Assembly: GCA_016938235.1 (NCBI GenBank)
Contig: JAFGVA010000137.1
Coordinates: 1 to 44,868 of the forward strand
Source: Bacteroidales bacterium
GTDB taxonomy: Bacteria > Bacteroidota > Bacteroidia > Bacteroidales > UBA10428
Direction: 5' to 3'
DNA: 44,868 bases
The translations under genes were made by a program, and so were the position numbers. Each line of letters begins with the position of its first letter. Positions within the stretch are counted from its first letter, which is position 1. The notes beneath the pieces were generated by a model that worked only from the letters and a program-made list of their open reading frames with translations, searched no databases and had not been told where the DNA came from. Shown here piece after piece: positions 6,860 to 23,055 of this stretch.

Positions 6860-7043
6860 TAAGTTAAACCCTATTGCTTTATTGCTAGTTTCGCAAATTG
6901 AATAGTTTTTTTAGTGCTACCTTGATGCCGTTAATTGGAATGGATAGTTTGGTTTTTTCTTTAATTCATAAAATACGAATTTGAAAATTAATCACACGTA
7001 AAAACAATAAACCTATATTGTTTAATGGACCAGATTGTTGAAC

Positions 7044-7051
7044 TATCTTTA
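7044..7051 (+). promoter_or_regulatory. Weak Bacteroidota-type -7 box before the metalloprotease
   Basis: TATCTTTA matches TAnnTTTG at seven of eight positions, with a TTGT at 7018-7021 22 bp upstream. The ATG at 7078 lies 27 bp downstream. The gap 6860-7077 holds no other recognisable element. Confidence 0.3.
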
Positions 7052-7077
7052 TTTGCTGATAACAACCAAATCCCTTT

Positions 7078-7866
7078 ATGAAAACAAACCTGATATTGCT
7101 TGCAGTAGTAATTGTATTTTCAAGTTTTAAGTATGATTTAAGTGGCCCCTGGAATTTGACCCGGCAAGAAAACCTTGTGCTTTATACAAGACCTGAGGGT
7201 TTTTCCAAAACTCCTTCGCCCGATTCTGCAGATATCTGCAAAATAATTTCAGCACAGTTACAAGATATTAAAAAAGTTAACCAAATGCTGAAAACTTCTT
7301 TTAACAAAGAGCTTCGAATTTACCTCTTTAATTACGATGAGGCCAGGGAAAAAATAAGAACAAATGCAGGAGGCGGAGCAAAGGTGAAGATTTGTGAAAT
7401 GTATTTTACTTTCAATAAAGATCTGGCAAGTAAAATGGATGATTTTATAGGCATGCATGAGATTGTGCATATTGTAGCTGGTAATGAGCTTGGTTATCCT
7501 TCAACTGTTCTTATGAATGAAGGGTATGCCAATGCTGTCTCAAATGGATATAAGCTGAGATTATCCGAAGATGGCAGTATACAACGTACAACTTTGGAGC
7601 AATGGATGAATGATTTTATAGCAAACAATCAGATTATTAAACCCTCAGAATTGCTCATAAAGAGTGATAAAATACCAGAGCATGTGTTTTATCCTCAGGC
7701 CGGGTATTTCGTAAAATGGATGATGAACATGTATGGAGTTGAAACTACAAATACACTCTACACTTTAAAACCCCAGAAACTGAAGAAAAAATTATTCTTG
7801 ATTACCGGGAAAGAGTTTAATATTATTGAAAAGGAGTATCTGAACTACCTCATAAATAAACTGTAA
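7078..7866 (+). CDS. Exported zinc metalloprotease-like protein (HEIVH, gluzincin type)
   Basis: 262 residues with an N-terminal hydrophobic stretch (4-16) that looks like a signal peptide or anchor. HEIVH at 127-131 fits HExxH, with two zinc-ligand histidines and a catalytic Glu. NEGYA at 147-151 supplies a Glu 17 residues after the second His, the arrangement of gluzincin (peptidase MA-like) enzymes. The rest lacks features I can assign to a named family. It stands alone after a 218-bp gap behind the receptors, so a functional link to them is only positional. The substrate is unknown. Confidence 0.75.
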   Translation: MKTNLILLAVVIVFSSFKYDLSGPWNLTRQENLVLYTRPEGFSKTPSPDSADICKIISAQLQDIKKVNQMLKTSFNKELRIYLFNYDEAREKIRTNAGGGAKVKICEMYFTFNKDLASKMDDFIGMHEIVHIVAGNELGYPSTVLMNEGYANAVSNGYKLRLSEDGSIQRTTLEQWMNDFIANNQIIKPSELLIKSDKIPEHVFYPQAGYFVKWMMNMYGVETTNTLYTLKPQKLKKKLFLITGKEFNIIEKEYLNYLINKL

Positions 7867-7904
7867 ATCTTAAGTTTTCCTCATAAAAGCTGGTGGCTAA
7901 ATAC

Positions 7905-7912
7905 TAACTTTG
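7905..7912 (+). promoter_or_regulatory. Candidate -7 promoter box TAACTTTG
   Basis: Matches TAnnTTTG exactly and lies 49 bp before the ATG at 7961, in the 94-bp gap after the metalloprotease. No TTTG -33 element is evident at the expected distance. Confidence 0.4.
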
Positions 7913-7960
7913 TGGAATCAAGTTTTTTTTCTGATTAAGAATAATAATATCACATTATTG

Positions 7961-8542
7961 ATGAACAAATTTTTCTTCGCAGTTTTCATTTTTATTATAC
8001 CATTACACACCTTTTCTCAAGAAACCGAAAGCAATATTTATAGTGGTGGAATGTTGTTTTTTCAGCCAGGATATGCTGTTACGCATAACGGACATCAAGA
8101 AATTAGTGATATAAGTTTTGGTATAGGAGGTATACTTAGGTTTTATGTTTTTGATTACATTACTATAGGAGTTTTTGGAGGTTCTCAAAAATTAAATTAT
8201 AATTCATCCAATTCTCAGAATTCATATATTAATATTGGTTACGGTGGTCCATTTGTTGGATTCAGCCAAAAGTCAGGAAAGTTTCGTTATACCGTATCGG
8301 TTTTTGTCGGTGGAGGTACAATAAAAAATTTGCACATTGAAAACCAAATTCAGGAATTATTAGTTGATGCTCATTTATACAAAACGCCTACCGTAGTTGT
8401 TTCACCTATCATTAGCCTTGATTACGCATTAACTCAAAAATTATATTTGACGATGCAAACGGTTTGTTTGTCTGCAAAATTTATTGATGACAAGAAATTT
8501 CTTAACCCTGCCTTACAAATGGGAGTATTGTTTTTTCGATAA
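7961..8542 (+). CDS. Small exported protein, probable outer-membrane beta-barrel
   Basis: 193 residues beginning MNKFFFAVFIFIIPLHTFSQ, a clear signal peptide cleaved after about residue 20. The mature part alternates polar and hydrophobic residues, is rich in Gly, Tyr and Phe, and ends in FFR, as expected of a small 8-strand barrel. I recognise no named family. The ATG at 7961 is chosen. The in-frame TTG at 7910 would overlap the promoter box at 7905-7912 and place extra residues before the signal peptide. The next gene starts 43 bp downstream. Confidence 0.7.
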   Translation: MNKFFFAVFIFIIPLHTFSQETESNIYSGGMLFFQPGYAVTHNGHQEISDISFGIGGILRFYVFDYITIGVFGGSQKLNYNSSNSQNSYINIGYGGPFVGFSQKSGKFRYTVSVFVGGGTIKNLHIENQIQELLVDAHLYKTPTVVVSPIISLDYALTQKLYLTMQTVCLSAKFIDDKKFLNPALQMGVLFFR

Positions 8543-8585
8543 TAGACCTTATCTGAATCTATGTTTTACAAAATTAATTACTATA

Positions 8586-9758
8586 ATGCAAAACATCATC
8601 TGGTCAACAGGCCATAAACGCAGAATAACAGATATTGTTGAAGCCAATAACTGCACAATAACCGATTCTCGGGGTAACACATATACCGATTTGGAATCGG
8701 GAGTCTGGGCAACCAGCGTTGGCCATTCCAATCCAAAGGTAAATAAGGTAATTAAATCGCAAGTCGATAAAATTGCGCATACCGGCTTTTGTTACTGCAA
8801 TCCAATTATTGAAAAATGCGCCCGGAATATACTCGATGCAGCAAATCTGGAAGGCGGAAAATGCGAGTTTTTATGTTCTGGCAGCGAGGCTGTTGAATAT
8901 GCGATGCGGGTGGCCCAAACAATAAGTAATAAGCCTAAAATTTTAACTTTTACTGATTCGTATTTTGGAGCATATGGCACTGCCACCCAGAAAGAAAGCG
9001 ATAATCTGTATTTATACAACTGGCTCGAATGTACGTGTAATAATAAGTCTGGAGCTTGCAGCGGTGATTGTAAGCATTTTAACGAAATACCTTTCGATGA
9101 GGTTGGAATCTTTTTGTTTGAACCCGGCAGCTCATCTGGTTTGGTCAGGTTTCCACCGGTAGAACTAATCGATAAAATTATAAAAAGAATAAAAAGCCAG
9201 GGCGGACTTGTAGTTGCAAATGAAATAACAACCGGTATCGGGCGTACAGGCAAATGGTTCGGATTTCAGCATTACCCGATTCAAGCTGACATTGTGGCAA
9301 TGGGTAAAGGCTTGGGCAATGGATACCCCGTAAGCGCAGTAGCTATCTCGAAAGAAGTTTCACGGGTGCTTGAGAAAAAGCAATTTCATTATTCCCAATC
9401 GCATCAAAACGATCCCCTGGGAGCATCGGTGGCTAATGAGGTTTTGAATATAATCAGGGATGAAAAGCTTTTGGAAAGATGTTCACGTCTGGGAAACAAA
9501 CTGTTAAAACAGTTAAATGAGCTACAATACAGATATCCGGTTATAAAAGAGGTCAGGGGAAGGGGTTTTATGATTGGAATTGAATTACATCATCAAGCCG
9601 ACCAGGTATTCGAAGAACTTTTCAACAGGGGCTTTCTTTTGGTTAAACGTTCTTATGCCGAAGTATTGCGTATGGATCCTGCTCTGACAATCGACGAAAG
9701 TGATTTAGATTTATTTGTTACTACTTTTGAGAAGATATTGCAAAAAATTAATTGTTGA
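8586..9758 (+). CDS. Class III (ornithine/GABA-type) PLP-dependent aminotransferase, atypical
   Basis: 390-residue fold-type I enzyme. The PLP lysine is K241 in MGKGLGNGYP. CSGSEAVEYAMRVA (97-110) is the phosphate-binding region, and GIGRTG (217-222) and FEPGSSSG (178-185) are family motifs. Two oddities stand out. The Asp that contacts the PLP ring nitrogen in the usual DEVQTG motif is Asn212 (ANEITTG). A short insertion at 149-162 carries four cysteines (CTC ... C...C), with C69 and C71 also close in sequence. The substrate is unknown. The ATG at 8586 gives the normal family N-terminus. The longer open frame from 8484 overlaps the previous gene and is not used. A cupin gene follows after 13 bp, probably in one operon. 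Confidence 0.88.
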   Translation: MQNIIWSTGHKRRITDIVEANNCTITDSRGNTYTDLESGVWATSVGHSNPKVNKVIKSQVDKIAHTGFCYCNPIIEKCARNILDAANLEGGKCEFLCSGSEAVEYAMRVAQTISNKPKILTFTDSYFGAYGTATQKESDNLYLYNWLECTCNNKSGACSGDCKHFNEIPFDEVGIFLFEPGSSSGLVRFPPVELIDKIIKRIKSQGGLVVANEITTGIGRTGKWFGFQHYPIQADIVAMGKGLGNGYPVSAVAISKEVSRVLEKKQFHYSQSHQNDPLGASVANEVLNIIRDEKLLERCSRLGNKLLKQLNELQYRYPVIKEVRGRGFMIGIELHHQADQVFEELFNRGFLLVKRSYAEVLRMDPALTIDESDLDLFVTTFEKILQKINC

Positions 9759-9771
9759 TAGGCATTAAAAA

Positions 9772-10131
9772 ATGGAGAAAGTAATTATTAATGAAAAACT
9801 TGCCTTGTTTTCGGAACATTGGAAACCCAAAATAGTTGGAGAGTTAAACGAACAATACGTAAAACTTGCCAAAATAAAAGGTGAATTTGTCTGGCACAAA
9901 CATGAAAAGGAAGACGAAATGTTTTATGTTCTAAGTGGAGAACTGAAAATTGAACTTAGAGATAAAGTTTTAACCCTGAACCCCAATGAATTTGCGATTA
10001 TTCCCAAAGGTGTTGAACATAGACCAGTAGCAATAGATGAAGTATCAATAATGATAATTGAACCCATGTCTACCCTTAATACCGGTGATGCAGAAAGTGA
10101 GTTAACAGTTAAAGAATTAGATCGAATTTAG
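9772..10131 (+). CDS. Single-domain cupin protein
   Basis: 119 residues forming one cupin barrel. Motif 1 is WHKHEKEDEMFYVLSGEL, which supplies H42, H44 and E48/E49 as metal ligands. Motif 2 is FAIIPKGVEHRP, which supplies the last His. There is no signal peptide, so it is cytoplasmic. Such single cupins bind a divalent metal and act as small isomerases, dioxygenases or binding proteins. Which applies here cannot be told. The 13-bp spacing to the aminotransferase suggests co-expression, perhaps on a common metabolite. Confidence 0.88.
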   Translation: MEKVIINEKLALFSEHWKPKIVGELNEQYVKLAKIKGEFVWHKHEKEDEMFYVLSGELKIELRDKVLTLNPNEFAIIPKGVEHRPVAIDEVSIMIIEPMSTLNTGDAESELTVKELDRI

Positions 10132-10156
10132 TATTAAATAAAACAGAAAAGAAATC

Positions 10157-10498
10157 ATGTCAGACGAAATGAAAAAGTGTCCTCAATGTAAGTCTCCTTA
10201 TGGATATTTTGTGAGAGAAGGAGTTTATGCCTGCCCCGAATGCAATCACGAATGGAATCCTGAAGAGCTTGTTGATGAGGATGTTCTTATTGTTAAAGAT
10301 TCGAACGGAAATATTTTACAGGATGGAGATTCAGTAATCGTTATTAAAGATTTACCAGTGAAGGGCGCTTCCGGTCCTATTAAAGCCGGCACAAAGGTTA
10401 AAAAAATAAGATTGGTTGAAGGAGACCATAATATCGATTGCAAAATTGACGGCTTTGGGGCAATGGGTTTAAAATCGGAGTTTGTACGGAAAGCATAG
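10157..10498 (+). CDS. yjdM: Zinc-ribbon protein YjdM (PhnA family)
   Basis: 113 residues. The N-terminal zinc ribbon has CPQC (8-11) and CPEC (27-30). It is followed by the PhnA/YjdM domain with [21 protein letters not shown] and the C-terminal [15 protein letters not shown]. Length and layout match the family. Despite the historical PhnA name, the family is not shown to act on phosphonates, and its role is poorly defined. It follows the cupin by 25 bp and probably belongs to the same transcript. Confidence 0.93.
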
Positions 10499-10515
10499 TA
10501 AAAATAGTACCTTTG
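10481..10515 (+). promoter_or_regulatory. Promoter of the polysaccharide deacetylase gene
   Basis: The -7 box TACCTTTG (10508-10515) matches TAnnTTTG exactly, and a TTTG (10481-10484) lies 23 bp upstream as the -33 element, overlapping the end of yjdM. A start a few bases after the box would leave almost no leader before the ATG at 10523. That argues for translation from the ATG at 10541. Confidence 0.6.
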
Positions 10516-10540
10516 GTATCATATGCAAAGTTTTACATCC

Positions 10541-11341
10541 ATGAAAAACACACTTATTATCTTCTTTTTTTTCCTGATAATGACAAATCAAAATTCAAAT
10601 GCCCAACAAGAAGGTATATGGAATGGCAAAAAATGCGCAGTTGTATTAACCTATGACGATGCACTGAATGTTCATCTCGATAATGTAATTCCATGCCTCG
10701 ATTCATTCGGAATAAATGGAACTTTTTACATTATTGGTGAATCTGAAATCTTAAGAGAAAGATTACCAGAGTGGAAAACAGCAGCTGCAAACGGACACGA
10801 ACTGGGGAACCATTCACTCACGCATCCCTGCGATGGTGGTAAGAATGGCCGTTCCTGGGTTAGCAAGGAAAGTGACTTAAGGTCTTATTCTGTTCACCGT
10901 GCAGTAAACGAAATTCGTATAACCAATACCCTTCTTTATGCCATAGATGGCAAAACGGAAAGGACATTTGCCTATCCCTGTGCCGATAAATACATCGATA
11001 CTGTAGCTTTTTATAACGAACTAGGAGATGAATTTCCCGGAGCAAGAGGAGTGTATTCTAAAATGCAGCATTTAAGCGATGTTGACTTAAGCGATATTCC
11101 CAGCTATATGATTATGGATAAATCGGCCGACTACATGATAAACCTTGTGAAAGAAGCGCAGGATACACATACACTTCTTGTTTTTTTGTTTCATGGAGTT
11201 GGAGGAGAGCATAACATCAATGTATCGCTTGAAGAACATAATAAGCTGGTACATTACCTGGTAGAAAATGAAGATGAGATTTGGATCGCTCCATTAGTTG
11301 ATGTTGCAAAGTATATAAAGGAGGAACAAGAAAATAAGTAG
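10541..11341 (+). CDS. Exported polysaccharide deacetylase (NodB homology domain)
   Basis: 266 residues with a signal peptide (1-21, ending NSNAQ). NodB motif 1 is TYDDA at 37-41 (catalytic base D39, metal ligand D40). Motif 2 is HSLTH at 91-95 (both metal His). Motif 3 is probably RTFAYPC (141-147), and the last His is in FLFHGVGG (216-223). Family members remove acetyl or related acyl groups from sugars. The substrate here is unknown. The ATG at 10541 is chosen over 10523 because of the promoter position. A membrane-protein gene follows after 18 bp. Confidence 0.88.
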   Translation: MKNTLIIFFFFLIMTNQNSNAQQEGIWNGKKCAVVLTYDDALNVHLDNVIPCLDSFGINGTFYIIGESEILRERLPEWKTAAANGHELGNHSLTHPCDGGKNGRSWVSKESDLRSYSVHRAVNEIRITNTLLYAIDGKTERTFAYPCADKYIDTVAFYNELGDEFPGARGVYSKMQHLSDVDLSDIPSYMIMDKSADYMINLVKEAQDTHTLLVFLFHGVGGEHNINVSLEEHNKLVHYLVENEDEIWIAPLVDVAKYIKEEQENK

Positions 11342-11359
11342 ACACTTTCTTTTAGACCT

Positions 11360-11761
11360 ATGCCAATTAATCCTGTTAAGAACTTCACTTCAAAATATAC
11401 AAAGCCGCTTCAGATACTTTTATTTTTATACATTATAGGTTTTACGATTGGAACAACCACCCATACAATAGATATTATTAAGGGAGGTTTTTTACCCTAT
11501 AATCATTTAGAATTGTGGAAAAATATTTATTGGACTTCTTTAACCCTGCTTGATTTTCTGGCAATAGTTTTAGTCATATATTCCCTGGTTCCGGCACTTA
11601 TTCTGGCAAACATCATTATGATTTCCGATGTGCTGATTAATACGCAGTTTTTAACTGTTTTTAGTCACTATAAACTGGTGTTTCAATTGGTTTTTTGTGC
11701 CTATGTGGTTATTTCGACACCTTTTATTTGCAGAAAATATTCTTTTGAAAACCATAAATAG
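11360..11761 (+). CDS. Small integral membrane protein of unknown function
   Basis: 133 residues with about four hydrophobic spans: near 17-33 (LQILLFLYIIGFTIGTT), 58-78, 79-96 and 105-123. The N-terminus is basic and the end polar. I recognise no family. The 18-bp spacing after the deacetylase suggests the same transcript. Confidence 0.65.
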   Translation: MPINPVKNFTSKYTKPLQILLFLYIIGFTIGTTTHTIDIIKGGFLPYNHLELWKNIYWTSLTLLDFLAIVLVIYSLVPALILANIIMISDVLINTQFLTVFSHYKLVFQLVFCAYVVISTPFICRKYSFENHK

Positions 11762-11794
11762 AATGATCGAAGGCTTGCAACTTTTGATTTTAAT

Positions 11795-11893
11795 ACTCTG
11801 TGATCCTTTGTGTTTCTTAGTGAATCTCAGGGTAATAACTGTTTGTATAAATTACGCAGAGTGTCACAGAAGCTTCACAAAGAATCACAGAGA
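11795..11893. repeat. Imperfect inverted repeat of the CTCTGTGATYCTTTGTG type
   Basis: CTCTGTGATCCTTTGTG at 11796-11812 is repeated in inverse near 11875-11892 with one mismatch. Weaker matching extends the arms to about 27 bp around a loop of roughly 50 bp. The segment is non-coding, lies between convergent genes, and looks like a dispersed intergenic repeat or a small mobile-element relic. Copy number elsewhere cannot be judged here. Confidence 0.55.
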
Positions 11894-11923
11894 CTTTTAA
11901 TTCTAAAGCAAAACATAAAATAA

Positions 11924-11953
11924 CCTTGTCAGGATAATTGAACCCTGACAGGG
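11924..11953. terminator. Hairpin between convergent genes, likely bidirectional terminator
   Basis: CCTTGTCAGG (11924-11933) pairs with CCTGACAGGG (11944-11953), nine Watson-Crick pairs plus one G-T, around a 10-nt loop. It sits 13 bp past the stop of the minus-strand peptidase gene and after the plus-strand membrane gene. T-runs are poor, so efficiency is uncertain. Confidence 0.5.
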
Positions 11954-11965
11954 TGAAGAGAATTC

Positions 11966-13222
11966 TTAAAACTTCTTCAGGATATCTTTTACAGCATCTT
12001 TATGAACGGTAAAGCCCATCATTTTCAGTTTGATATAATCTTCGTGGAAGTAATAATAACCAAATCTTGGGTCATCTTCGCTAACATTTCTTGAACCCGA
12101 ACTGGAATCTTTAATTAAATACCAGTCTTCACCACTATCTTTATAGTCTTCAAGAATGCCAATGAGCTGCATGCCATGGTCGTCGGTTGTGGTTTCGTTA
12201 GAGAAGCGGAACTGGCGTGCATCTTCATTAATATAATCTGAAGGAATGTCGAAATCAGGAATCATGGCGCAGTTGGTTTCCCTGCTAAATCCTGTTTCCG
12301 AAACATCGCCGCCAATGCTCATGCTGTATCCATTTTTTATGGCTTGTTTTATAACTTCCATATAGTCATTAAGCGGAATATTGTAATAATCTTTGCTGTG
12401 CCACCAGTTGTCTGGTACCTTGTATTCTACTTTTTTCCAGTATGGTTCCTGTTTGTACGATAAAATTTCAACATAGTCATCCGGATTTATCTTAAGATAG
12501 TCTTTAAGGTATGTTTGGGGATTGTATTTTTTACCTTCCACTGCAAATTCAACCGGAGGTTCACCAATGTATTTATTCATTATAGCTTTAATGGTTTCCA
12601 GTCCGAAGGCTTCGTTCCATGCATTGTTCTTTTTCATTGACTTCAAGAATGCAGTCATTTCATCAACCATTTTTTCGTGGGTGTGAAATTTGCGTCCATC
12701 TTTTAGTCCTGTGTATGCTTCATAAGGAACCGCTCCGTATGTTTTCATAATTCTGGCTACGGCATTTCCTTCTGAGCCCTCGCTGAATTCAGAATTTCCA
12801 CGCTTGTCAATATATCTGCGTGCTTTCTCAATATATTCCCAGTAAACGGTGTAAATCTCAGAAATTTCAACTTTTTTATTTTGAAGTCTGTATACTTCAG
12901 ATTCGTAAAAGGCTGTTGTTGAAAAGGCCCAGCAAGTACCGGCATTTCCCTGTGATTCGGTAGCTTGGGTCCAGACCGATTTGTAAAGACTATTGTCGTT
13001 GGGAAGATCAAGCCCTGATTGATCCATATTAAAACGGATGTACGGTTGTTTGTCCTCATTTTCAATAGCATCGTTAACGGCATTCACATCTTTGAGTATC
13101 GACTCGTAATAATAACCTTTGCCTCTTTCAAAGACTTCTATTTTTCCTTTGTCCTGGTTATTTTGAGCCAGAACGCTCAGACTCATTGTCAGAGTCAGAA
13201 TAAAGTTTAAATTTCGCTTCAT
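11966..13222 (-). CDS. Exported papain-fold C1 peptidase, bleomycin hydrolase/PepC-like
   Basis: 418 residues with a signal peptide (1-19, ending SVLA). The active-site block is SQGNAGTCWAFS, with oxyanion-hole Gln91 and nucleophile Cys97. The catalytic His is H349 in TDDHGMQLIG. The third residue, normally Asn in a KNSWG motif, is Asp372 in LIKDSSSGS. The C-terminal YYFHEDYIKLKMMGFTVHKD ends shortly after. Length and the large insertions match the bleomycin hydrolase (C1B) group rather than papain. Those enzymes are usually cytosolic aminopeptidases, whereas this one is exported. I believe the KDSS form recurs in Bacteroidota relatives, but could not check. It lies alone on the minus strand between convergent and divergent neighbours. 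Confidence 0.88.
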   Translation of the reverse strand: MKRNLNFILTLTMSLSVLAQNNQDKGKIEVFERGKGYYYESILKDVNAVNDAIENEDKQPYIRFNMDQSGLDLPNDNSLYKSVWTQATESQGNAGTCWAFSTTAFYESEVYRLQNKKVEISEIYTVYWEYIEKARRYIDKRGNSEFSEGSEGNAVARIMKTYGAVPYEAYTGLKDGRKFHTHEKMVDEMTAFLKSMKKNNAWNEAFGLETIKAIMNKYIGEPPVEFAVEGKKYNPQTYLKDYLKINPDDYVEILSYKQEPYWKKVEYKVPDNWWHSKDYYNIPLNDYMEVIKQAIKNGYSMSIGGDVSETGFSRETNCAMIPDFDIPSDYINEDARQFRFSNETTTDDHGMQLIGILEDYKDSGEDWYLIKDSSSGSRNVSEDDPRFGYYYFHEDYIKLKMMGFTVHKDAVKDILKKF

Positions 13223-14282: not shown

Positions 14283-15665
14283 TTAAAAACTATAGCTGAA
14301 TTTTAGGATGAACATATTGAAATTCTTCAGTTTAGCGAACATATTTTCTCCTTTGCCATCGAATAAAACAGTGAATAGCGTGATGTCTGAATTAACCGAT
14401 GACTGGTATTTTATGGAAGGCATATAAACCAGTGCATAATTGTTGCTTAATTGTTTCCAATCGCTAACAATAAAACCACCACCTATTGGCGCTACCTTAA
14501 GTTTTTCGTTCAGGAAGCCTTTTTCGTATTGCATAAAGAAATAATCGTTCAGGTTTTCACTGCCTCTTTCATGCACGAAGCCATGCATGTACTGCAGGTT
14601 AAAGTAAGAACCATCAGGAAGAAAGTAATCGCCACCGATAATATATTTCAGGTATGGCTTATTCTTATCAAGCACGGCTTGGTCCTGAATCATATTTGGA
14701 ATTATTGCCGACATATCGGTGATCGTGTGAATGTCTTCGGTTGGCAGATATAGCGCTGCTTCAGCCCAAAAGCCCATACCACCTATTCCGGTTGCAATAT
14801 CGGCTCCAATTATGTGGTTTCGAAAAAATGAAACTTCGGAATTCACATGAATACCAACAATTGGGTTGGTTACAGGAATAAGTTCATTCCTGGTATTAAA
14901 AGGCAGGCCATCAATGCCCCAAACATAGCTTATTGAAAAATCTGTTCCGCCTGCATATCCTTTAAATTTGAATGCTGCAGTTGAGCTTTTCTTTAGATTG
15001 TAGTCTGGCATTAAAACAGTATCTGAAAGGCCAACTATAGTTAGCCCTTCAGGAAAGCTCATTTCAGGATTCAAAGAGTTTGCGAAGATGCCTGCAGGTA
15101 AATTTGCAGGTTGGAAAAAAGGAAGAAAAACTGCTTGCATCGAATAATCATTGTTTAGATAATATTTCAGGTTAAGTGCGTCGGAACCTCTGCGACGTCC
15201 AAAATCAAGTATGTCTTCCATATCGAGCGGATTCAGATTATCGGTTGGATTTAACTTGTCGGCAGTGCCCCACACTATGCGTTGGCGACCTATTGTAAGG
15301 TCCATTTTGTCAGAAACAAAACCAATAACGTGAACGTAAGCTTCCCTGATTTCGAGGTTGTAGGGGTCAACAATACCTTTATTGTATAAATCTGAAGACA
15401 TGAGCACATTGGGTAAACCAATATTTCTTAACCAGATGTCGCTATGGAACTTTGAGTTATCTGTTACCTTTTTATCAAGCTTAAGTGATAATCTTGTTTC
15501 GTTCCATGCCCAGTCATTGTCATCTTTTAATAATAAGCGTTGGTCAGTGGTAAAAGTCCCTGAAAGTTTAAGCTTGTTATCATCTGTTTGTGCGTATCCA
15601 AACTTCAGATTAATGGTAATTGAAGTAATCAGTATCACAATTGTATGGACAAAAAATCTTTTCAT
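14283..15665 (-). CDS. DUF1302-type outer-membrane protein of an MMPL export system
   Basis: 460 residues with a signal peptide (1-25, ending GYAQ). The mature part is beta-rich, with alternating strands and a C-terminal LKFSYSF. The block IGRQRIVWGTADKLNPTDNL followed by NPLDMEDILDFGRRR is typical of DUF1302 proteins. It is the last gene of a minus-strand set with a LolA-like protein and an MMPL transporter. In Proteobacteria, DUF1302 genes often sit with DUF1329 (LolA/LolB-like) and MMPL genes, so an outer-membrane exit or acceptor role is inferred. A 152-bp gap separates it from the LolA-like gene. Confidence 0.82.
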   Translation of the reverse strand: MKRFFVHTIVILITSITINLKFGYAQTDDNKLKLSGTFTTDQRLLLKDDNDWAWNETRLSLKLDKKVTDNSKFHSDIWLRNIGLPNVLMSSDLYNKGIVDPYNLEIREAYVHVIGFVSDKMDLTIGRQRIVWGTADKLNPTDNLNPLDMEDILDFGRRRGSDALNLKYYLNNDYSMQAVFLPFFQPANLPAGIFANSLNPEMSFPEGLTIVGLSDTVLMPDYNLKKSSTAAFKFKGYAGGTDFSISYVWGIDGLPFNTRNELIPVTNPIVGIHVNSEVSFFRNHIIGADIATGIGGMGFWAEAALYLPTEDIHTITDMSAIIPNMIQDQAVLDKNKPYLKYIIGGDYFLPDGSYFNLQYMHGFVHERGSENLNDYFFMQYEKGFLNEKLKVAPIGGGFIVSDWKQLSNNYALVYMPSIKYQSSVNSDITLFTVLFDGKGENMFAKLKNFNMFILKFSYSF

Positions 15666-15817: not shown

Positions 15818-16540
15818 TTATTGTTTGAGTTTTCTTACGGTAAATTCATCATCCGTCAAGCCGGTATCGTATTTCACATCGCTCATAATCATTTGTGTTT
15901 TGTGATTTTTTTTAAAATTTATCATTTCAACAAGTTCGGTATTCCAGTATTTTCCTAGTTTTTTAAAGTTGTATGTTGCTTCTTTAATTTTATTATTTCC
16001 CTTATCGTAATACTCCATTTTCTCCGGATAATAATTTGTTTTGTTCACGTTAATAATGATTTTTGAATAATCCGAAGGTGTCTTTGGTATTAATTCCAGG
16101 ATAAAAGCATTAGATTCAGTTTTTAATAATTTCGCTGTGTATTTCGCAGCGAACGATTTTGATTCCAAGTCGTCATAAGAAAAATCGGTTCCAGCAAAAT
16201 TCTGGTTTTTAGAGCTCGAAGCTATTCTTCTCTCTTTTCCGAATGCTGGCAGATACAAATACATAATATCGTCTGGCAATGATAACACCGAGATGCCTGC
16301 TTGTGATGCCGGTGAAGTAAAGCGGAACATGCGCATATCGGTGCCTTTTTGTAGCATTGTTGCTTCGCGGACTTCCTCATTTCCATTTTTGTCGATTAAG
16401 ATTATTTTCTGAGTGGCAGAAATATCTTTAGCTGAAAACATTATTTCATCCATTTTTTGTAAAATGGCATTTGCTTCCTGAGCATTCGCGGCAAAAATAC
16501 TTGCCGATAATATCAGAGTTGAAAAAATTATTCGTATCAT
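15818..16540 (-). CDS. LolA-like periplasmic protein (outer-membrane lipoprotein-sorting family)
   Basis: 240 residues with a signal peptide (1-20, ending FAANA). The body matches the LolA-like family linked to MMPL transporters: DISATQKIILIDKNGNE, RMFRFTSPASQAGISVL, YLYLPAFGKERRIASS and FAGTDFSYDDL. The LolA fold is a half-barrel that carries acyl chains. Here it would shuttle a hydrophobic cargo between the MMPL pump and the outer membrane. It begins 22 bp after the MMPL stop. It is not the housekeeping LolA, whose neighbours and motifs differ. Confidence 0.88.
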   Translation of the reverse strand: MIRIIFSTLILSASIFAANAQEANAILQKMDEIMFSAKDISATQKIILIDKNGNEEVREATMLQKGTDMRMFRFTSPASQAGISVLSLPDDIMYLYLPAFGKERRIASSSKNQNFAGTDFSYDDLESKSFAAKYTAKLLKTESNAFILELIPKTPSDYSKIIINVNKTNYYPEKMEYYDKGNNKIKEATYNFKKLGKYWNTELVEMINFKKNHKTQMIMSDVKYDTGLTDDEFTVRKLKQ

Positions 16541-16562: not shown

Positions 16563-18818
16563 TTAAACCGTTTTATTGTTGTTCTTTTTTCTGTATGCCA
16601 GTATTAAAATAACAGGCAACAGGGTTAAGGCTCCCAGACCTGAACTAACCATACTGATTGCGATTAGTAAACCAAAATTCTTGAGTGGTACTATGTGTGA
16701 CAATACCAGTACTAAAAATCCAGCAGCAACAGAAAGCACATTAATGATAATAGCATTTCCTTTGGCCATAATGGTTTCTTTAATGGCTTTTTCTGTATCT
16801 CCGAATTCTTTCATGTGTGTATTATAACCTGTAATTAAGTGTATGGAATAGTCTATTCCGATACCCATTGCAACGCTTCCAACAAGTACGGTTGCAATAT
16901 CGAGCGGTATGCCCGTAAATCCCATAAAACCAAGTAGAAACAATACGGTTGCAATAATTGGAATGGTTGCAAAAACACCTTCTGACAAAGAGCGCATAAT
17001 AATTGCTACTATCAGAAATACCAGTATGATTGCTATTATTAAACTGCTGTACTGACTTTTTACCAGGCTGTCGTTTAATTTAACATATAGTGGGGGTATG
17101 CCTGTGAAGTTTATTTTGTAATTTTCACCGGGGTTTTCTTCAATAAATTTGTTCATTTTATTGGTGAAATTGTCAATTTCATCTGTTTCAATAGAAGCAA
17201 ATTTTGACTGTATTATCCCTTTGTCCAGGTTGTAAGAAACAAGCTGCTCCATAATATCCTGGCCATCAAGTAAAAACCACAATTGTTCTATTTTAGTTTT
17301 ATCGTCAGGAATTTTTTCGCCTTCTCCCATGGCATAGTTCATTTGTTCTACCAAATCGGCAACCGACTGTGCCGAATGAATATTAGGATCCTGTTTTATG
17401 AATTCTTCGGTTTTTATCATCATCTTCAAGACTTCCGGTTCTTGTATGTCACCTTCAAATTCAACAAAAACAGGCAGGGAGCCACCAAACTTTTTCTGCA
17501 TAATATTTTCCGAAATCCGGGTAGGATTGTCTGCTTTAAAATATTCGGTAATGTTTACGCTTGTTTTTATCATGAAAACGCCAACAATACTAAAGGCTAT
17601 TATTATAAGCCATATAGCTAAAACACGTTTAGGGTATTTAAAAAGAATTTTTATTAAAGGCTGAAGGAAACCATGGGTAATTATATCTTTTTTTTCTTTG
17701 TTTGCTTTTTTGTCTTTCTTGTTGTAAAAAGATAATCCGGAAAGGAGAGCCGGTACAAAAAATATGGAAAGTAACAATGCGAATACAATTCCGATTGAAG
17801 TTATAATACCGAAATCCCTGATTATAGAAAGGTACGCACCAAAAATAAACGAAATAAAACCAATAGACGTTGTAAGAGATGCCAGTATTATTGGAACTAT
17901 GGTATAGGCTAAAGCTTTGAGCAAAGCTTTCTTTCTGTCTTTTAACGAAAACAGGTTAATGCTGTTTAATACATGTATTGTATAAGCGCTTCCAATGGCA
18001 AGCAGTGCTACAGGCATTGTATTTGAAATAATAGAGATTTCAAATTTTAAAATAGCCATGAATCCTAATGTCCAGATTACAGTAATGCCAGCTATAAGCA
18101 ATGGTAAAAACATTCCTCTAAGCGACCTGAAACTGACTAGAAGTATAAGAGCAATAATAAGAAAGACAACAGGTATAAGCACCGACATATCAGATACTAT
18201 TAACTCGGTTATATCGGTTAATAAAAAGGGTAATCCGCCAAAATAGAGTGTTTCAGGCAGAGCTAAATTATTCACCCTGTTTTTTATCCTTAAGGCAGCT
18301 AAACGCATGTCGGCATCGTGTAAAAGTTTAAATAGTATAAGGCTTGCAGTGCCATCTGCTGATACAATTGACTCTTTATACATATCTTTTGAATCGATGT
18401 AATTTCTGAGATTGTCGAGCTCTGCTTGTCCCTCGGGTAAATTATATTCGTCAATCAATTTTCCAATCTCAATGCCCCATTCCGAACTTTTAATATCCAG
18501 AATATTTGTCATGCTTGTTACCGAAGACACATCGCTGTCGATACTAAGACTGTCCGTTATCTGTTTGATATGTTTTAATACTTCAGTTTCATAAACATTT
18601 TCTGTTTCCAACACTATCATGCCAATGTTATTGCCGCCATATTGCTTGCCAATATTTTTATATAAGAGTGCAGTCGGGTCATTTTCGGGCAAAGAACTAA
18701 GAATGTCAGCATTTATATGCAAATTTTTAAGCTGGTAACCCAAAAAGAGTGTTAACCCCAGAACAAAAGCAATGATTACCCACCTGAATTTAACAATTCG
18801 CTCTGCTAATTTTTCCAT
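16563..18818 (-). CDS. MMPL/RND-superfamily exporter
   Basis: 751 residues with RND-type internal duplication. TM1 is at about 12-29, a periplasmic domain lies at about 30-205, and five spans at about 208-365. TM7 is at about 398-417, the second periplasmic domain at about 418-588, and the last five spans at about 590-741. The second half carries GIGIDYSIH (D656-Y657), equivalent to the Asp-Tyr proton relay of MmpL proteins. The first half has AIGSAYTIH, with Ala278 replacing the Asp, which I believe is usual in this subfamily. MMPL pumps move lipids or other hydrophobic compounds using proton motive force. It is first in an MMPL-LolA-DUF1302 set with its own promoter and two predicted operators. 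Confidence 0.92.
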   Translation of the reverse strand: MEKLAERIVKFRWVIIAFVLGLTLFLGYQLKNLHINADILSSLPENDPTALLYKNIGKQYGGNNIGMIVLETENVYETEVLKHIKQITDSLSIDSDVSSVTSMTNILDIKSSEWGIEIGKLIDEYNLPEGQAELDNLRNYIDSKDMYKESIVSADGTASLILFKLLHDADMRLAALRIKNRVNNLALPETLYFGGLPFLLTDITELIVSDMSVLIPVVFLIIALILLVSFRSLRGMFLPLLIAGITVIWTLGFMAILKFEISIISNTMPVALLAIGSAYTIHVLNSINLFSLKDRKKALLKALAYTIVPIILASLTTSIGFISFIFGAYLSIIRDFGIITSIGIVFALLLSIFFVPALLSGLSFYNKKDKKANKEKKDIITHGFLQPLIKILFKYPKRVLAIWLIIIAFSIVGVFMIKTSVNITEYFKADNPTRISENIMQKKFGGSLPVFVEFEGDIQEPEVLKMMIKTEEFIKQDPNIHSAQSVADLVEQMNYAMGEGEKIPDDKTKIEQLWFLLDGQDIMEQLVSYNLDKGIIQSKFASIETDEIDNFTNKMNKFIEENPGENYKINFTGIPPLYVKLNDSLVKSQYSSLIIAIILVFLIVAIIMRSLSEGVFATIPIIATVLFLLGFMGFTGIPLDIATVLVGSVAMGIGIDYSIHLITGYNTHMKEFGDTEKAIKETIMAKGNAIIINVLSVAAGFLVLVLSHIVPLKNFGLLIAISMVSSGLGALTLLPVILILAYRKKNNNKTV

Positions 18819-18872: not shown

Positions 18873-18897
18873 TTGACTATTATAGTTTTTTGGTCAG
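18873..18897. promoter_or_regulatory. Predicted TetR operator, site 1 (MMPL leader)
   Basis: TTGAC (18873-18877), exactly 15 bases, then GTCAG (18893-18897): one mismatch from a perfect TTGAC/GTCAA dyad. The spacer TATTATAGTTTTTTG is close to that of site 2. It lies 55 bp before the MMPL start codon. Confidence 0.65.
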
Positions 18898-18917
18898 ATA
18901 AAGATAAAAAATATGAT

Positions 18918-18942
18918 TTGACTATAATAGTTTTTAAGTCAA
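18918..18942. promoter_or_regulatory. Predicted TetR operator, site 2 (MMPL promoter)
   Basis: TTGACT (18918-18923) and AGTCAA (18937-18942) are perfect inverted arms; the spacing is TTGAC-N15-GTCAA. Site 1 starts 45 bp away. The downstream arm overlaps a minus-strand TAATTTTG box, so a bound repressor would block the MMPL promoter. Confidence 0.7.
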
Positions 18943-18947
18943 AATTA
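18940..18947 (-). promoter_or_regulatory. Candidate -7 box TAATTTTG of the MMPL operon
   Basis: On the minus strand this reads TAATTTTG, an exact TAnnTTTG match. It overlaps operator site 2 exactly as the tetR box overlaps site 3. Transcription from here gives a leader of about 110-115 nt containing operator site 1. Confidence 0.6.
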
Positions 18948-18965
18948 GTTTAAAAAAATGTTAAA

Positions 18966-19550
18966 TTATTTCTGCATGCCTCTGAGACTAACGGTAATCA
19001 TTGTAACTAGTTCGTCTATTGTGCTTTCGTATTCGGAATATTTATTTTGCAGATAAAGCGGGAACTCAATGCTGGATAAAAGCATCATTACCACATTCAC
19101 GGTAGATTTCATGTTGTTGATGGTCAGATGCCCGTCCTTTTCACCTTTCGTAAATAGCCAGAGTAGTTGTTTATATTCATAAGCTGCAAAATCATCCCTC
19201 ACATCCTTTACAAAATTATATTTTTCAAAAAAATCAGCTTTCAGAGTTTCGTGGTAGTTTACTGCGGTACTTAATAATTTTAAACGTGTAAGGAAGTATT
19301 GTTTAATAATGGTCATGTAATCTTCATTGCTGCTGATAATCTTTGAAAGTTCGGTTTTAACATTATCGAGTTCTTTTTTGAGCACCTCTCTGAAAAGCTC
19401 TTCTTTACTTCTAAAATAATAATAGATTACGCCTTTTGCTTTATGAATGTTTTTAGCAATCTCATCCATAGTGGTTTTATGAAAACCATATTTCGAGAAA
19501 AATTTGGTAGCTGAATCAACTATTAAATCTTTAACGTCGATCTCTGGCAT
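18966..19550 (-). CDS. TetR family transcriptional repressor
   Basis: 194 residues from the ATG at 19550 (MPEIDVKDLI). The N-terminal helix-turn-helix is at about 6-52: DSATKFFSKYGFHKTTMDEI then AKNIHKAKGVIYYYFRSKEE, the standard TetR_N pattern. The C-terminal ligand domain is unspecific. A TTG start at 19589 would put the operator and promoter box inside the coding region, so it is rejected. The gene lies directly upstream of the MMPL operon on the same strand, 147 bp away. The same TTGAC-N15-GTCA dyad occurs in both leaders, so it probably represses itself and the exporter until a hydrophobic ligand binds. Confidence 0.92.
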   Translation of the reverse strand: MPEIDVKDLIVDSATKFFSKYGFHKTTMDEIAKNIHKAKGVIYYYFRSKEELFREVLKKELDNVKTELSKIISSNEDYMTIIKQYFLTRLKLLSTAVNYHETLKADFFEKYNFVKDVRDDFAAYEYKQLLWLFTKGEKDGHLTINNMKSTVNVVMMLLSSIEFPLYLQNKYSEYESTIDELVTMITVSLRGMQK

Positions 19551-19555
19551 GGGCG

Positions 19556-19580
19556 TTGACTTTTTTTGATAATTAGTCAA
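19556..19580. promoter_or_regulatory. Predicted TetR operator, site 3 (tetR leader)
   Basis: TTGAC (19556-19560), N15, GTCAA (19576-19580) is a perfect 5-bp dyad with the same spacing as sites 1 and 2. On the plus strand the right arm continues AATTAG exactly as in site 2. It ends 5 bp before the tetR ATG, overlapping the tetR promoter box. Confidence 0.7.
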
Positions 19581-19585
19581 AATTA
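19578..19585 (-). promoter_or_regulatory. Candidate -7 box TAATTTTG of tetR
   Basis: Exact TAnnTTTG match on the minus strand, 27 bp upstream of the ATG at 19550, giving a leader of about 20 nt. It overlaps operator site 3. Confidence 0.6.
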
Positions 19586-19725: not shown

Positions 19726-22700
19726 TTATTTTTTCAAAGGAATGGTGAAACTAAAATTGGATCCTTTATTTATTTCGCTCTCAACTGTTAATTCGCCTTT
19801 GTTTTTTGTTACAAACTCTTTGCAGATTAAAAGTCCCAGTCCGGTGCCAGTTTCGCCACGAGTGCCTAAGTCTGAGTTTGATTCGCCAATAATAAATAAT
19901 GAGTTCAGTTTTTCTTTGCTCATTCCAATTCCTGTATCATTTATGGAAAGCTTCGCAAAATCACCTCTAATTACAACTGTAATTGTAATTTGGCCTTTTT
20001 CAATAAATTTTACAGCATTTGACAATAAGTTTCTGATTACGGTGTGTGTCATATTTTTATCGGCATAAACAATAATATCCTCCGGCACATCAAGGTTGAG
20101 TTTAATGCCTTTCTCTTCAAATCGTGTTTCCTCGAGCAATATATTAGTCCGAATTACTTCAAATAAACTGAATTCTTCAGGTTCATATTTTATGGCTCCG
20201 GTTTGTGAACGAGACCATTGCAGAAGATTTTCTAATAGTTTATAAACCGAATCTGAAGATGTATATATTGAATCGACTAAAATTTTAAGTCTTTCTTTGG
20301 GGATTGTATCAAATTTTTTGGAAAGTATTTCACTTATACCTAATATGGAGTTAAAAGGGTTTTTTAAATCATGAGCTAAAATGGTGAAAAATTTATCCTT
20401 AGTTGCATTTAATATCAATAAAGATTCATTTTTCTCTTTTATTTCCTTGGTTCTTTCAGCAACTGTTTGCTCAAGCTGTAATTTTTGACTGTGCAAAGAA
20501 CTAAGCTTAAAAAGATAAAATACAATAAATAGGGTAATAAATATTAGTGCAACTAAAATTTTAAAACCCAGAGTCTGCCACCAGGGAGGCAGAATTGTTA
20601 TTTCAACGAATGAACCTTCCTCGTTCCAGATATTATCCTGATTAGATGCTTTTACTCTAAAAATATATTGGCCGGGATCCAGATTTGTATAGGTTACTTC
20701 GCGCCTGGTTCCACAATAAACCCAATCCTTATCAAAACCTTCCATAATATAGGCATATTGTTTTTTATCAGATTGAGTAAAGCTTAATGAAGCATATTCA
20801 AAAGTAATTACTAAGGCTTGTTTGTGGTCTAAAACAATTTCATGTGTTTGAATAATGCTTTTCTCAAGTGGGGAATTTATATCAGTATGACTCACTGACT
20901 TATTTGAAAGTTTGAAATTTGTAATATAAACGGTGGGAAGGTTTTTATTATCGATAATACTATCCGGATCAAAATAAACAACTCCGTTATTACCTCCAAA
21001 ATAAAGAGAACCTTTATTGTCTTTGGAGCAAGCTCTTGGATAGTATTCGTTTGAAGGCAGGCCATCGTTAATGTCGTAATTCCGAAAACTTTCGGTATTT
21101 AGGTCAAATTTAGCAATCCCCATGTTGGTACTTATCCATAAACAGCCATTTTTGTCCTCTAAAATGCCTTTTATAACGTTATTCGGCAAGCCGTCTTTCT
21201 GGAAATATGACTTGAAAGACTTGGTTTCTCTTATAAAAAGATTCAATCCTTCGTTGGTGCCAATCCATAGGTTTTTATTTGAATCCTCGAAAAGGCAATT
21301 TATGAAATTGTTGCTTAAGCTACTATTGTCTTCCGGGATATGAAAGAAATTGGTGAATTTCTCATTTTCAGTATCCAGCCAGCTTAATCCATAGGATGAG
21401 CCGGCCCATATATTGCCCTGGTAATCGCATAAAACATCAAATAACCAGTCGTTAACTAGCCCAACCTCATTATTGATTTTGTTTTGTTTGTAATGCTTAA
21501 AAGAACCCGACTTTGGGTCAAATTTATCCAATCCGTAACCATGAGTTGCTAACCAAAAAATACCTTCATTGTCTTCAGTTATGGCTCTTATGTCTTTCAC
21601 TACTGCACTTTCCGAATTGTTTGATTGGTTAAAAAAAGCAGTAAAGTTTTTCTCTTGACTGTTGTACTTCTGTAATCCTCCAAAGTAGGTTCCAACCCAT
21701 ATATTTCTCAGGCGATCTTCATAAAGCATCAACACGGAACCGGCTCCCAGGCTTTTATTATTCACAGGTATGTTATCGAATTGGTAAATTTCATTTTTCA
21801 TGAAATCAATTTTATCTATACCGGCGTTGTATAAACCAACCCAAAGTTTGCCTTTGCTATCTGCCAATAAAGAACTTACAATGTTCTTTGAAAGTTTAAA
21901 CTCGTAATCGGAGGAGGTATTAATTGTTTTAAATTTTTTCTTTACCAGCGAAACATTTACCCCTCCTTTAGCCGATAATACCCAGTAATTGCCATCTTTA
22001 TCCTGAAGTATCGACACAATACCCGAGCTTATTAAGCTGTTTTTATCTTGTTCATTGTAATAATAATAATGGAAAATACCTTTTTCTCTGTCATACAATT
22101 TCAAGCTGTTGCTGGCACCCACCCAAATATTATTTTCTTTGTCTTTGTATATAATGTTTATGAAATCTTCGTAAGTGTCGTAATTAAATGATCGAACTAA
22201 TTCTTTCGTATTTTTATTGTACCAGAAAAGCCCGCCTCCCTGGCTGCTTATCCAGAATTTATCATCATCTTCTACAATATTATTATAAGGATATTCAACT
22301 TGAGGGTTATAGATTGTTTTAATTAATTTTATTTCAGAATTAAACAGGTATATGCTATCAGACAATGCCCACAGATTGTTTTCGCTATCGAAAAACAGAA
22401 ACTTTATTTCGCTTTCGAGCATTAACAATTCACGCAATCTGCCTTTCTTTTTGTCGAACTCAAGTAATTTGCCGTTTTGTAAACCAAAAAACAATTTCTG
22501 ATTTTTGTTCTCGGCTATAGATGAGATATGGTTTGATTCATGGCCAAAGTCACCTTCAACAAAATAAAAATTCGAAAAGGAATCAAATTCGGAATTATAA
22601 AGACAGAGTCCCTGGTGAGTGCCTATCCAGAGATTACCATCACTATCGGTAAATAATTTGGAAATGTAATTATGAGAGAGGCTGGTTGAATCATTATTCT

Positions 22701-22917
22701 TTTTTCGGTAAACTTTAAAATTATAACTATCAAAGCGATTTAGGCCATCTTCGGTACCGATCCAAATAAAACCTTTCTTGTCTTGCGCAATATTAATTAC
22801 CTCACTGCTCGACAAACCATCTTCGGTAGTATAATGTAAAAAAGAAAGTTCTTTTCTCCCCTGGCAAAAAACAAGAACAGGTATAGCCAAAACTATAATC
22901 AGAAGGCACCTTTTCAT
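19726..22917 (-). CDS. Sensor histidine kinase with Reg_prop beta-propellers and Y_Y_Y domain
   Basis: 1063 residues from the ATG at 22917 (MKRCLLIIVLAIPVLVFCQG, signal peptide). About 14 Reg_prop repeats (such as GFIWIGTEDGLNRFD and GNLWIGTHQGLCLY) form a two-propeller periplasmic sensor to about residue 660. The Y_Y_Y domain follows (about 690-750), then a membrane span (about 765-785), a coiled coil, HisKA with phospho-acceptor at about H849 (LAHDLKNPFNSILG) and HATPase (NLLSNAVKF, DTGIGMS, GTGLGLLICK). Unlike the hybrid two-component systems of Bacteroides, it ends after the ATPase with no receiver or AraC domain. No response regulator lies next to it. A GTG start at 22938 is possible. 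Confidence 0.9.
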   Translation of the reverse strand: MKRCLLIIVLAIPVLVFCQGRKELSFLHYTTEDGLSSSEVINIAQDKKGFIWIGTEDGLNRFDSYNFKVYRKKNNDSTSLSHNYISKLFTDSDGNLWIGTHQGLCLYNSEFDSFSNFYFVEGDFGHESNHISSIAENKNQKLFFGLQNGKLLEFDKKKGRLRELLMLESEIKFLFFDSENNLWALSDSIYLFNSEIKLIKTIYNPQVEYPYNNIVEDDDKFWISSQGGGLFWYNKNTKELVRSFNYDTYEDFINIIYKDKENNIWVGASNSLKLYDREKGIFHYYYYNEQDKNSLISSGIVSILQDKDGNYWVLSAKGGVNVSLVKKKFKTINTSSDYEFKLSKNIVSSLLADSKGKLWVGLYNAGIDKIDFMKNEIYQFDNIPVNNKSLGAGSVLMLYEDRLRNIWVGTYFGGLQKYNSQEKNFTAFFNQSNNSESAVVKDIRAITEDNEGIFWLATHGYGLDKFDPKSGSFKHYKQNKINNEVGLVNDWLFDVLCDYQGNIWAGSSYGLSWLDTENEKFTNFFHIPEDNSSLSNNFINCLFEDSNKNLWIGTNEGLNLFIRETKSFKSYFQKDGLPNNVIKGILEDKNGCLWISTNMGIAKFDLNTESFRNYDINDGLPSNEYYPRACSKDNKGSLYFGGNNGVVYFDPDSIIDNKNLPTVYITNFKLSNKSVSHTDINSPLEKSIIQTHEIVLDHKQALVITFEYASLSFTQSDKKQYAYIMEGFDKDWVYCGTRREVTYTNLDPGQYIFRVKASNQDNIWNEEGSFVEITILPPWWQTLGFKILVALIFITLFIVFYLFKLSSLHSQKLQLEQTVAERTKEIKEKNESLLILNATKDKFFTILAHDLKNPFNSILGISEILSKKFDTIPKERLKILVDSIYTSSDSVYKLLENLLQWSRSQTGAIKYEPEEFSLFEVIRTNILLEETRFEEKGIKLNLDVPEDIIVYADKNMTHTVIRNLLSNAVKFIEKGQITITVVIRGDFAKLSINDTGIGMSKEKLNSLFIIGESNSDLGTRGETGTGLGLLICKEFVTKNKGELTVESEINKGSNFSFTIPLKK

Positions 22918-23055
22918 CTTAACAACACTAGAAAACACTTACTATCATTCAAAATCATGCTATTATACTCAATTATATTGAAACAGTTGCGATTATATGA
23001 ATGATTTATATCACTAAATATTTTCATTCAGTTGCAAGGGTTCTGAGTTCATATT

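Follow-up and report, generated by a model that had tools for sequence, protein, structure and literature searches.

Does the TetR-family regulator encoded on this Bacteroidales contig control both its own gene and the exporter operon that follows it? TetR regulators rank with the most common switches in bacteria and, to our knowledge, few from Bacteroidota have a known operator. In the window, that is, the whole stretch of 44,868 nucleotides analysed here, a first-pass annotation had picked out three copies of one dyad in the leaders of tetR and of the neighbouring MMPL gene, and had read them as tying both transcription units into a single circuit. Judging from the comparison of related loci, the sites are very probably operators of the window's TetR. 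We strongly favour a reading in which the three 25-bp elements, as operators of the TetR encoded between them, would mediate autorepression together with repression of the MMPL operon.

Three dyads in the leaders of tetR and the MMPL gene

A pattern search recovered TTGAC-N15-GTCAR, exact and with equal spacing, at all three places given in the first-pass annotation. Site 1 (18873..18897, minus strand) and site 2 (18918..18942, minus strand) lie in the MMPL leader and are the predicted operators B and A, each identified by the dyad match, by a profile of relatives' sites and by comparison. Site 3 (19556..19580, minus strand) is the predicted tetR-leader operator, identified by the dyad match and comparison. 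A fourth place was absent from the 44.9 kb, and the dyad is indeed confined to these two leaders within the window. Its five strand-matches at three places compare with 0.26 expected, and none of 100 dinucleotide shuffles of the window reached five. When stop-to-stop frames were considered, sites 1 and 2 fell inside no frame of at least 100 codons, and site 3 lay within the upstream extension of the tetR frame, 5' of the ATG.

The tetR gene (18966..19550, stop codon included, minus strand) encodes a TetR-family regulator of 194 aa. Its N-terminal TetR_N helix-turn-helix domain matched PF00440 with 59.1 bits (E = 3.7e-16, cut-off 24), and its AlphaFold model was all-helical with a pLDDT of 91.2. 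The best 50 fold matches listed were TetR-family regulators, such as DarR, EthR2, FadR (of the Bacillus type) and Rv0078, and a Cytophaga regulator was matched as well. DarR came first by E-value, with higher TM-scores for FadR and NemR. The best solved relative by sequence was PDB entry 3f0c, from Cytophaga and with a helix of the KAS/KSS type, then DarR and later QacR, whose chains align to regulator residues 5-158 (E about 1e-7). Against the Bacillus-type FadR model NF053878 the protein scored 45.4 bits, below the cut-off of 200. Homologs align from the residue encoded at 19550, so the start codon proposed for tetR was right, and 5 nt separate site 3 from this ATG. Upstream of tetR on the same strand (19726-22938) lies a gene for a sensor of 1070 aa, in which Reg_prop propeller, Y_Y_Y and histidine-kinase domains were recognised.

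Following tetR, also on the minus strand, are genes for an MMPL/RND transporter of 751 aa (16563..18818; PF03176, E = 7e-50), a LolA-like periplasmic protein of 240 aa (15818..16540; PF17131, E = 2.6e-48) and, as a downstream member of the cluster, a DUF1302-like outer-membrane protein of 460 aa (14283..15665) that scored 22 bits against PF06980, just under the cut-off of 23.2. The transporter matched the HAE3 RND model TIGR00921 over its full length (E = 4.5e-89), but with 299.4 bits against a cut-off of 351.9, and is filed here as an HAE3-like member of the MMPL family. In relatives too the LolA-like gene comes after MMPL, and the order of the outer-membrane gene is kept in L041, L042 and L046. 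No terminator-like site was called between tetR and MMPL and, since both genes share a strand, read-through from tetR could bypass operators A and B.

A longer, oriented element conserved around tetR

When the relatives' sites were read in the direction of transcription, they shared a longer element, YTGACY-NNN-AAAC-N6-RGTCAA. This element is more than a dyad, with an asymmetric AAAC centre and a fixed orientation. Sites 1 and 2 agree with it at every position; site 3 departs from it at two, its centre being the most diverged of the three and having lost the AAAC.

A TetR scan of genome contigs returned 16 loci, mostly from Bacteroidales MAGs, plus Prolixibacter (P. denitrificans DSM 27267, L053). 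Among the 12 nearly full-length close loci (L041-L052), the exact dyad stood 2-5 nt before the tetR start in nine and was absent in L046, L048 and L049, while the gap to the next gene held a site within two mismatches in 11/11 (that of L052 being cut). The fragment L056, outside these counts, had a TTGAC-type site at the right place, and the leaders of L054 (32%) and L055 (25%) had none within two mismatches. The leader alignment that the first-pass annotation had proposed as a check thus found the element conserved before and after tetR, and this conservation in the same two leaders points to the three sites being one element tied to tetR and its neighbour operon, as had been claimed.

TetR matches with E ≤ 1e-35 occurred in 41 of 392 genomes of the order, and matches were found in 5/395 genomes of a phylum draw and 5/395 of a class draw, made under limits similar to those of the order scan and with other queries. 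Many homologs at 37-46% identity keep the element in both leaders, with GTAC, GCAC or GTAT arms. We rejected strict TTGAC-N15-GTCAA as the whole motif because it misses L053, L017 and L018, which have other arms. With at most one mismatch, the core ACY-N3-AAAC-N6-RGT was present in 47/57 tetR leaders and 48/59 downstream leaders (missing in 10 and 11), denominators that leave out any homolog whose leader is truncated at the end of its contig; before widening, the corresponding figures were 36/44 and 37/44 rows. Both leaders carried the core in 37 of 60 distinct homologs, a count that drops L169 (29% identical to the window TetR) as well as L052 and L168, duplicates of L015 and L045. Only L016 and L115 had it in neither leader, and the single match of L161 is doubtful. 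These comparisons suggest that conservation of the circuit extends well outside the genus. In distant homologs such as L108, L053 and L128, a T-run (TAATTTTTTT or similar), which may be a promoter box or may end transcription, follows the tetR stop, and then comes an operator-like element 18-20 nt past that stop, at a near-fixed distance and with no clear TAnnTTTG box.

As controls, we scored remoter TetR paralogs (about 22-40% identity), in which the core was found in 1/19 tetR leaders and 0/20 downstream leaders (20 of the 22 control loci; L032 and L038 gave no match). Shuffled leaders had the core in about 2%. The control tetR leaders of L034 and L037 contain a strict [CT]TGAC-N15-GTCA[AG] dyad in which the AAAC is displaced by a single base, and L020 and L022 have look-alike dyads, both before and after tetR, that are centred on TTTTA. 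All four are remoter TetR paralogs, at 27-34% identity, and we read their dyads as those of putative sister subfamilies with related operators. Since these control dyads have another centre, the specific sign of the subfamily is the centre with the arms, and not the spacing. Exact 5-bp repeats peaked at spacer 15 in the homologs (33 in 26 loci; the next value was 18, at spacer 13), but spacer 15 was discarded as a subfamily mark because under a looser test the controls peaked there too, without a difference. Inverted repeats of 6 bp, loosely matched and separated by 15 bp, were equally frequent in control leaders (19/39) and homolog leaders (61/116), so that the paralog control is clean for the core and weaker for dyads in general. 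This weakening leaves our assessment of the circuit unchanged, because the core, its confinement and its double placement do not depend on it.

The pattern was learned from these loci, so its presence at them is partly circular; freer tests are its absence elsewhere, the window's own matches to the relatives' profile, and the wider homologs. The bare pattern was found at 10 distinct places in the window's own 5.22-Mb genome, the seven further ones all inside stop-to-stop frames of 122-764 codons, which are not established genes. With these seven other copies, and with a reversed control pattern that was as frequent (15+18 matches), the bare dyad was rejected as a genome-wide marker. The first-pass annotation had put forward genome-wide confinement as a check; it failed for the bare dyad and held for the refined motif, which without mismatches occurred nowhere else in this genome. 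Because the bare pattern is widespread, the cluster of three is what is special, and not the pattern alone. As for a wider regulon in the same genome, matches with two mismatches numbered 11+11 versus 25+12 for the control, and nothing beyond the locus stood out.

The refined pattern was matched exactly 12 times across 60 related genomes. Eleven of these matches fall at the tetR-MMPL locus and come from the five genomes whose ortholog reaches 66% identity or more; the remaining one is within a frame of 911 codons. We also built a profile from 36 relatives' sites, with the window excluded. In the window's own genome its best matches were both MMPL-leader sites (site 1, E = 4.4e-5; site 2, E = 3.8e-4), and site 3 was absent among the profile matches listed. 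In the 60 genomes, 14 matches had E-values under 0.0015, all at the tetR-MMPL locus; those in G001, G009, G012 and G022 hold by construction and the window's two do not. The next among the matches listed had an E-value of 0.003, and the weaker ones (E ≥ 0.003) included L135, in no 100-codon frame, and L136, in a 395-codon frame. Strong matches only at the locus indicate that control is local, at least for sites of such quality. In G022, the end of contig C156 carries tetR with its leader site and the end of C44 the MMPL start with tandem sites; these ends are apparently one locus split by assembly.

Predicted promoters and circuit

The Bacteroidota promoter box is described as TAnnTTTG (PMC9723704; PMC7366714), at -12 to -5 in Flavobacterium psychrophilum (PMC9723704). 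As had been noted earlier, AATTAG continues sites 2 and 3 and gives TAATTTTG on the minus strand at 18940-18947 and 19578-19585. The latter copy (19578..19585), an exact TAnnTTTG, is the tetR -7 box and overlaps the operator by 3 nt. An exact box lies over the first three bases of the dyad in 14/14 close tetR leaders having a site (13 distinct, L015 and L052 being identical). From this layout, tetR transcription would be expected to start near 19573, about 23 nt before the ATG and within the operator.

For MMPL, the likely -7 box is TATCTTTA (18899..18906, minus strand), one mismatch from TAnnTTTG and in a conserved place, with transcription expected to start near 18894 if the box is used. Among 12 tandem leaders, those in which both sites could be named (L016, L044, L046, L049, L051, L104 and L106 being excluded), the box before site B was exact in 10 and had one mismatch in the window and L014; where exact, it ends 2-3 nt before this MMPL-proximal site. 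The exact TAATTTTG beside operator A (18940..18947, minus strand) is a possible second MMPL promoter. The first-pass annotation had described identical operator-promoter geometry at sites 2 and 3, a description that did not carry over to relatives, as the site-2 box is exact in one of the 12 tandem leaders, that of the window itself. The distance from A to B was 44-46 bp in 12/12 leaders with both, and the offset to the -7 box was nearly fixed. On these predicted positions, operator A would extend over roughly -48 to -24 of the MMPL promoter and operator B over roughly -3 to +22.

This layout bears on whether the sites could be accidents of AT-rich leaders, with the TTGAC supplied by the TTTG of a -7 box and the rest by coincidence. 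The left arm does overlap TAnnTTTG in tetR leaders, the bare pattern is copied elsewhere, and loose inverted repeats are common in control leaders. However, site A has no exact overlapping box in 11/12 tandem leaders, the shuffled windows never reached the observed count, and the core is conserved in both leaders as it is neither in shuffles nor in paralogs, so that we regard chance as extremely unlikely.

In the circuit as we infer it, from binding and stoichiometry to repression and ligand, ligand-free TetR would sit on the tetR operator, where it covers the tail of the -7 box as well as the start, limiting its own synthesis. On the tandem pair, it would occupy A over the -33 region and B over the MMPL start, and the genes for MMPL, the LolA-like protein and the outer-membrane protein would thereby be silenced. 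The regulator would be released by a hydrophobic ligand, probably a lipid or amphiphile moved by the exporter.

A different mode of action, in which TetR is an MMPL activator, a dual regulator or a roadblock to read-through and not a plain repressor, would suit the position of site A. In the distant group, moreover, 15/25 downstream sites start 18-20 nt after the tetR stop, and the downstream sites have no clear adjoining TAnnTTTG box as judged by eye. Site B nevertheless covers the predicted start, a position typical of repression. Most studied TetR proteins are repressors, and we consider any of these other modes rather unlikely.

The element might also work as RNA, as a hairpin with an A-rich loop in both leaders that is bound by a protein or affects translation. 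In close sites the outer arms nearly always pair, site B and the tetR site are downstream of a -7 box, and weak stems are predicted (-2.5 to -5.1 kcal/mol). Against this, arms of distant sites mispair while each arm is conserved (pair -1:19 forms in 6/23 tetR-leader and 4/25 downstream sites), and site A, upstream of the conserved MMPL -7 box, would fall outside the transcript. An RNA element is thus very unlikely, and we return to the sites as DNA operators.

The outer half-sites are 18 bp apart (from the A of GAC to the T of GTC), too far for one dimer, which makes two dimers per element likely. The operator of QacR differs from the window element in half-site sequence and spacing. TetR regulators binding as dimers of dimers are described with operators of 22-32 bp and single dimers with 15-17 bp, and the recognition helices of QacR and CprB are 37-38 angstrom apart, about one turn (PMC4150764). 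The 25-bp conserved element falls in the 22-32 bp class; by analogy, each element probably binds two dimers, with the central AAAC as the inner half-site of one of them.

Recognition helix, known systems and neighbouring genes

In 46/46 homologs, residue 45 of the recognition helix (Tyr or His) tracks the right arm of the best downstream site, whose third base is a pyrimidine with Tyr45 or a purine with His45, typically GTC or GTA. This set also drops L161, in which the downstream match runs into the next gene, as well as L106 and L164, their helix falling outside the search pattern. On the tree there were two independent changes, both in the expected sense (sign test, p = 0.5); because there are only two, the covariation is suggestive and was not retained as proof. 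The left arm before tetR follows residue 45 less well, with 3/46 exceptions and no independent support. L050 carries one more site, whose arm is GTAA. In L162, L163 and L164, KSS or KAS replaces the KG of the helix and the arms are TCGAC/GTCGA, not TTGAC/GTCAA, while the AAAAC centre is mostly kept; L162 and L163 belong to another family within the class and L164 lies outside the class.

The sites could instead serve another DNA-binding protein that controls both genes, as half-site arms alone name no protein. This is quite unlikely, since strong matches in the 60 genomes occur only where a close TetR ortholog does, the element stays next to tetR even at loci with another downstream gene, and, within the limits given above, the arms vary with the recognition helix, both in the Tyr/His changes and in the TCGAC-type arms that accompany KSS or KAS. 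Keeping the local TetR as the binding protein, we put forward, tentatively and as less probable than the circuit itself, an ancient Bacteroidota TetR-operator pair in which an oriented, asymmetric 25-bp operator in the regulator's own leader and before a lipid synthesis or export operon is bound by two overlapping unequal dimers through a readable code. Such a pair would be found across families and in at least two classes of Bacteroidota. The operator would be directional, with three good half-sites (outer ACY, inner AAAC, outer RGT), its arms would change along with the recognition helix around a constant centre, and the sister subfamilies (L020, L022, L034, L037) would keep the length and change or shift the centre.

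Among studied systems, as described in the sources available, the closest circuit is that of MAB_4384, a TetR regulator of mmpS5/mmpL5 in Mycobacterium abscessus with a 27-bp palindromic operator, for which the authors' model has two dimers repressing exporter and regulator (PMC5895659). In both systems a TetR regulator adjoins an MmpL/RND exporter. The MAB_4384 genes are divergent around one shared operator, whereas those of the window are co-directional with, as predicted, one tetR operator and a tandem MMPL pair, and the two differ in phylum, operator sequence and partner genes. The QacR/CprB dimer-of-dimers class resembles the window element in its long operators, and no oriented AAAC-like centre was seen for it in the available part of PMC4150764. 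For DarR, a Lys-Gly pair of the recognition helix aligns with K39-G40 of the window's regulator, and the half-site ATACT/AGTAT (PMC10636190) is similar to the GTAT arms seen in His45 homologs, unlike the GTC arms of Tyr45 homologs. The DarR arms are 4 bp apart in a 20-bp site, whereas ACY and RGT in the window are 13 apart; DarR is reported to bind overlapping pseudo-palindromes with one half-site poor (PMC10636190). By analogy, two unequal dimers could bind the window element, one of them using the AAAC centre as its inner half-site.

Among exporter cassettes, again from the source text available, the nearest studied one is AmeABCD of Castellaniella. It combines an RND pump of the HAE3 type with two further proteins, one of the outer membrane (DUF1302) and one periplasmic (LolA superfamily), and is linked to hydrophobic compounds (PMC6394551). 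The window has a HAE3-like pump with DUF1302-like and LolA-like proteins (the PF06980 score being under its cut-off), but its LolA-like protein belongs to PF17131 and AmeB to DUF1329. No TetR operator was seen for AmeABCD in the available part of PMC6394551. Iron-responsive operons of TetR/AcrR, ABC, MMPL and lipoprotein-sorting genes are described in Porphyromonas and Prevotella (PG1181-type), along with a TetR-ABC locus, BT0507-9 (PMC10434189). Compared by description, they share with the window a TetR next to MMPL and an outer-membrane lipoprotein-sorting protein, and differ by their ABC subunits; the terms 'operator', 'palindrom' and 'binding site' are absent from the main text of PMC10434189. 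The circuit is thus of an ordinary, known kind, with an unusual oriented operator, and we found no description of the regulator-operator pair or the cluster in searches of the open-access literature. The comparison yields a regulator, its predicted operator, likely promoters and the target operon together, plus arm and helix variants that occur naturally. It opens the way to direct tests of the operator, of the ligand and of the model with two dimers, and a regulated promoter for work in Bacteroidota is a possible use.

The next recognised gene within 600 bp after tetR was MMPL in 30/62 rows, a PlsC-like acyltransferase in five, KAS III in three, a methyltransferase in three and a patatin in one. 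MMPL or a lipid gene thus came next in 42/62 rows and none of these in 20/62, the rows including two duplicates and many of the 20 being on short loci. This links the regulator to a lipid-type cluster of KAS III, acyltransferase, patatin, methyltransferase, MMPL and LolA-like genes. Because MMPL and lipid-synthesis genes follow tetR in relatives, the exporter cargo is likely a fatty-acyl product. L043 has two tetR genes, one before lipid genes and the other before MMPL, with sites after each. There, at 5971-12568, a run of KAS III, methyltransferase, acyltransferase, patatin and glycosyltransferase genes is flanked by the two tetR paralogs, which reads as two sister regulators controlling a cluster for lipid synthesis and an exporter of the MMPL family, with downstream sites that are operator-like.
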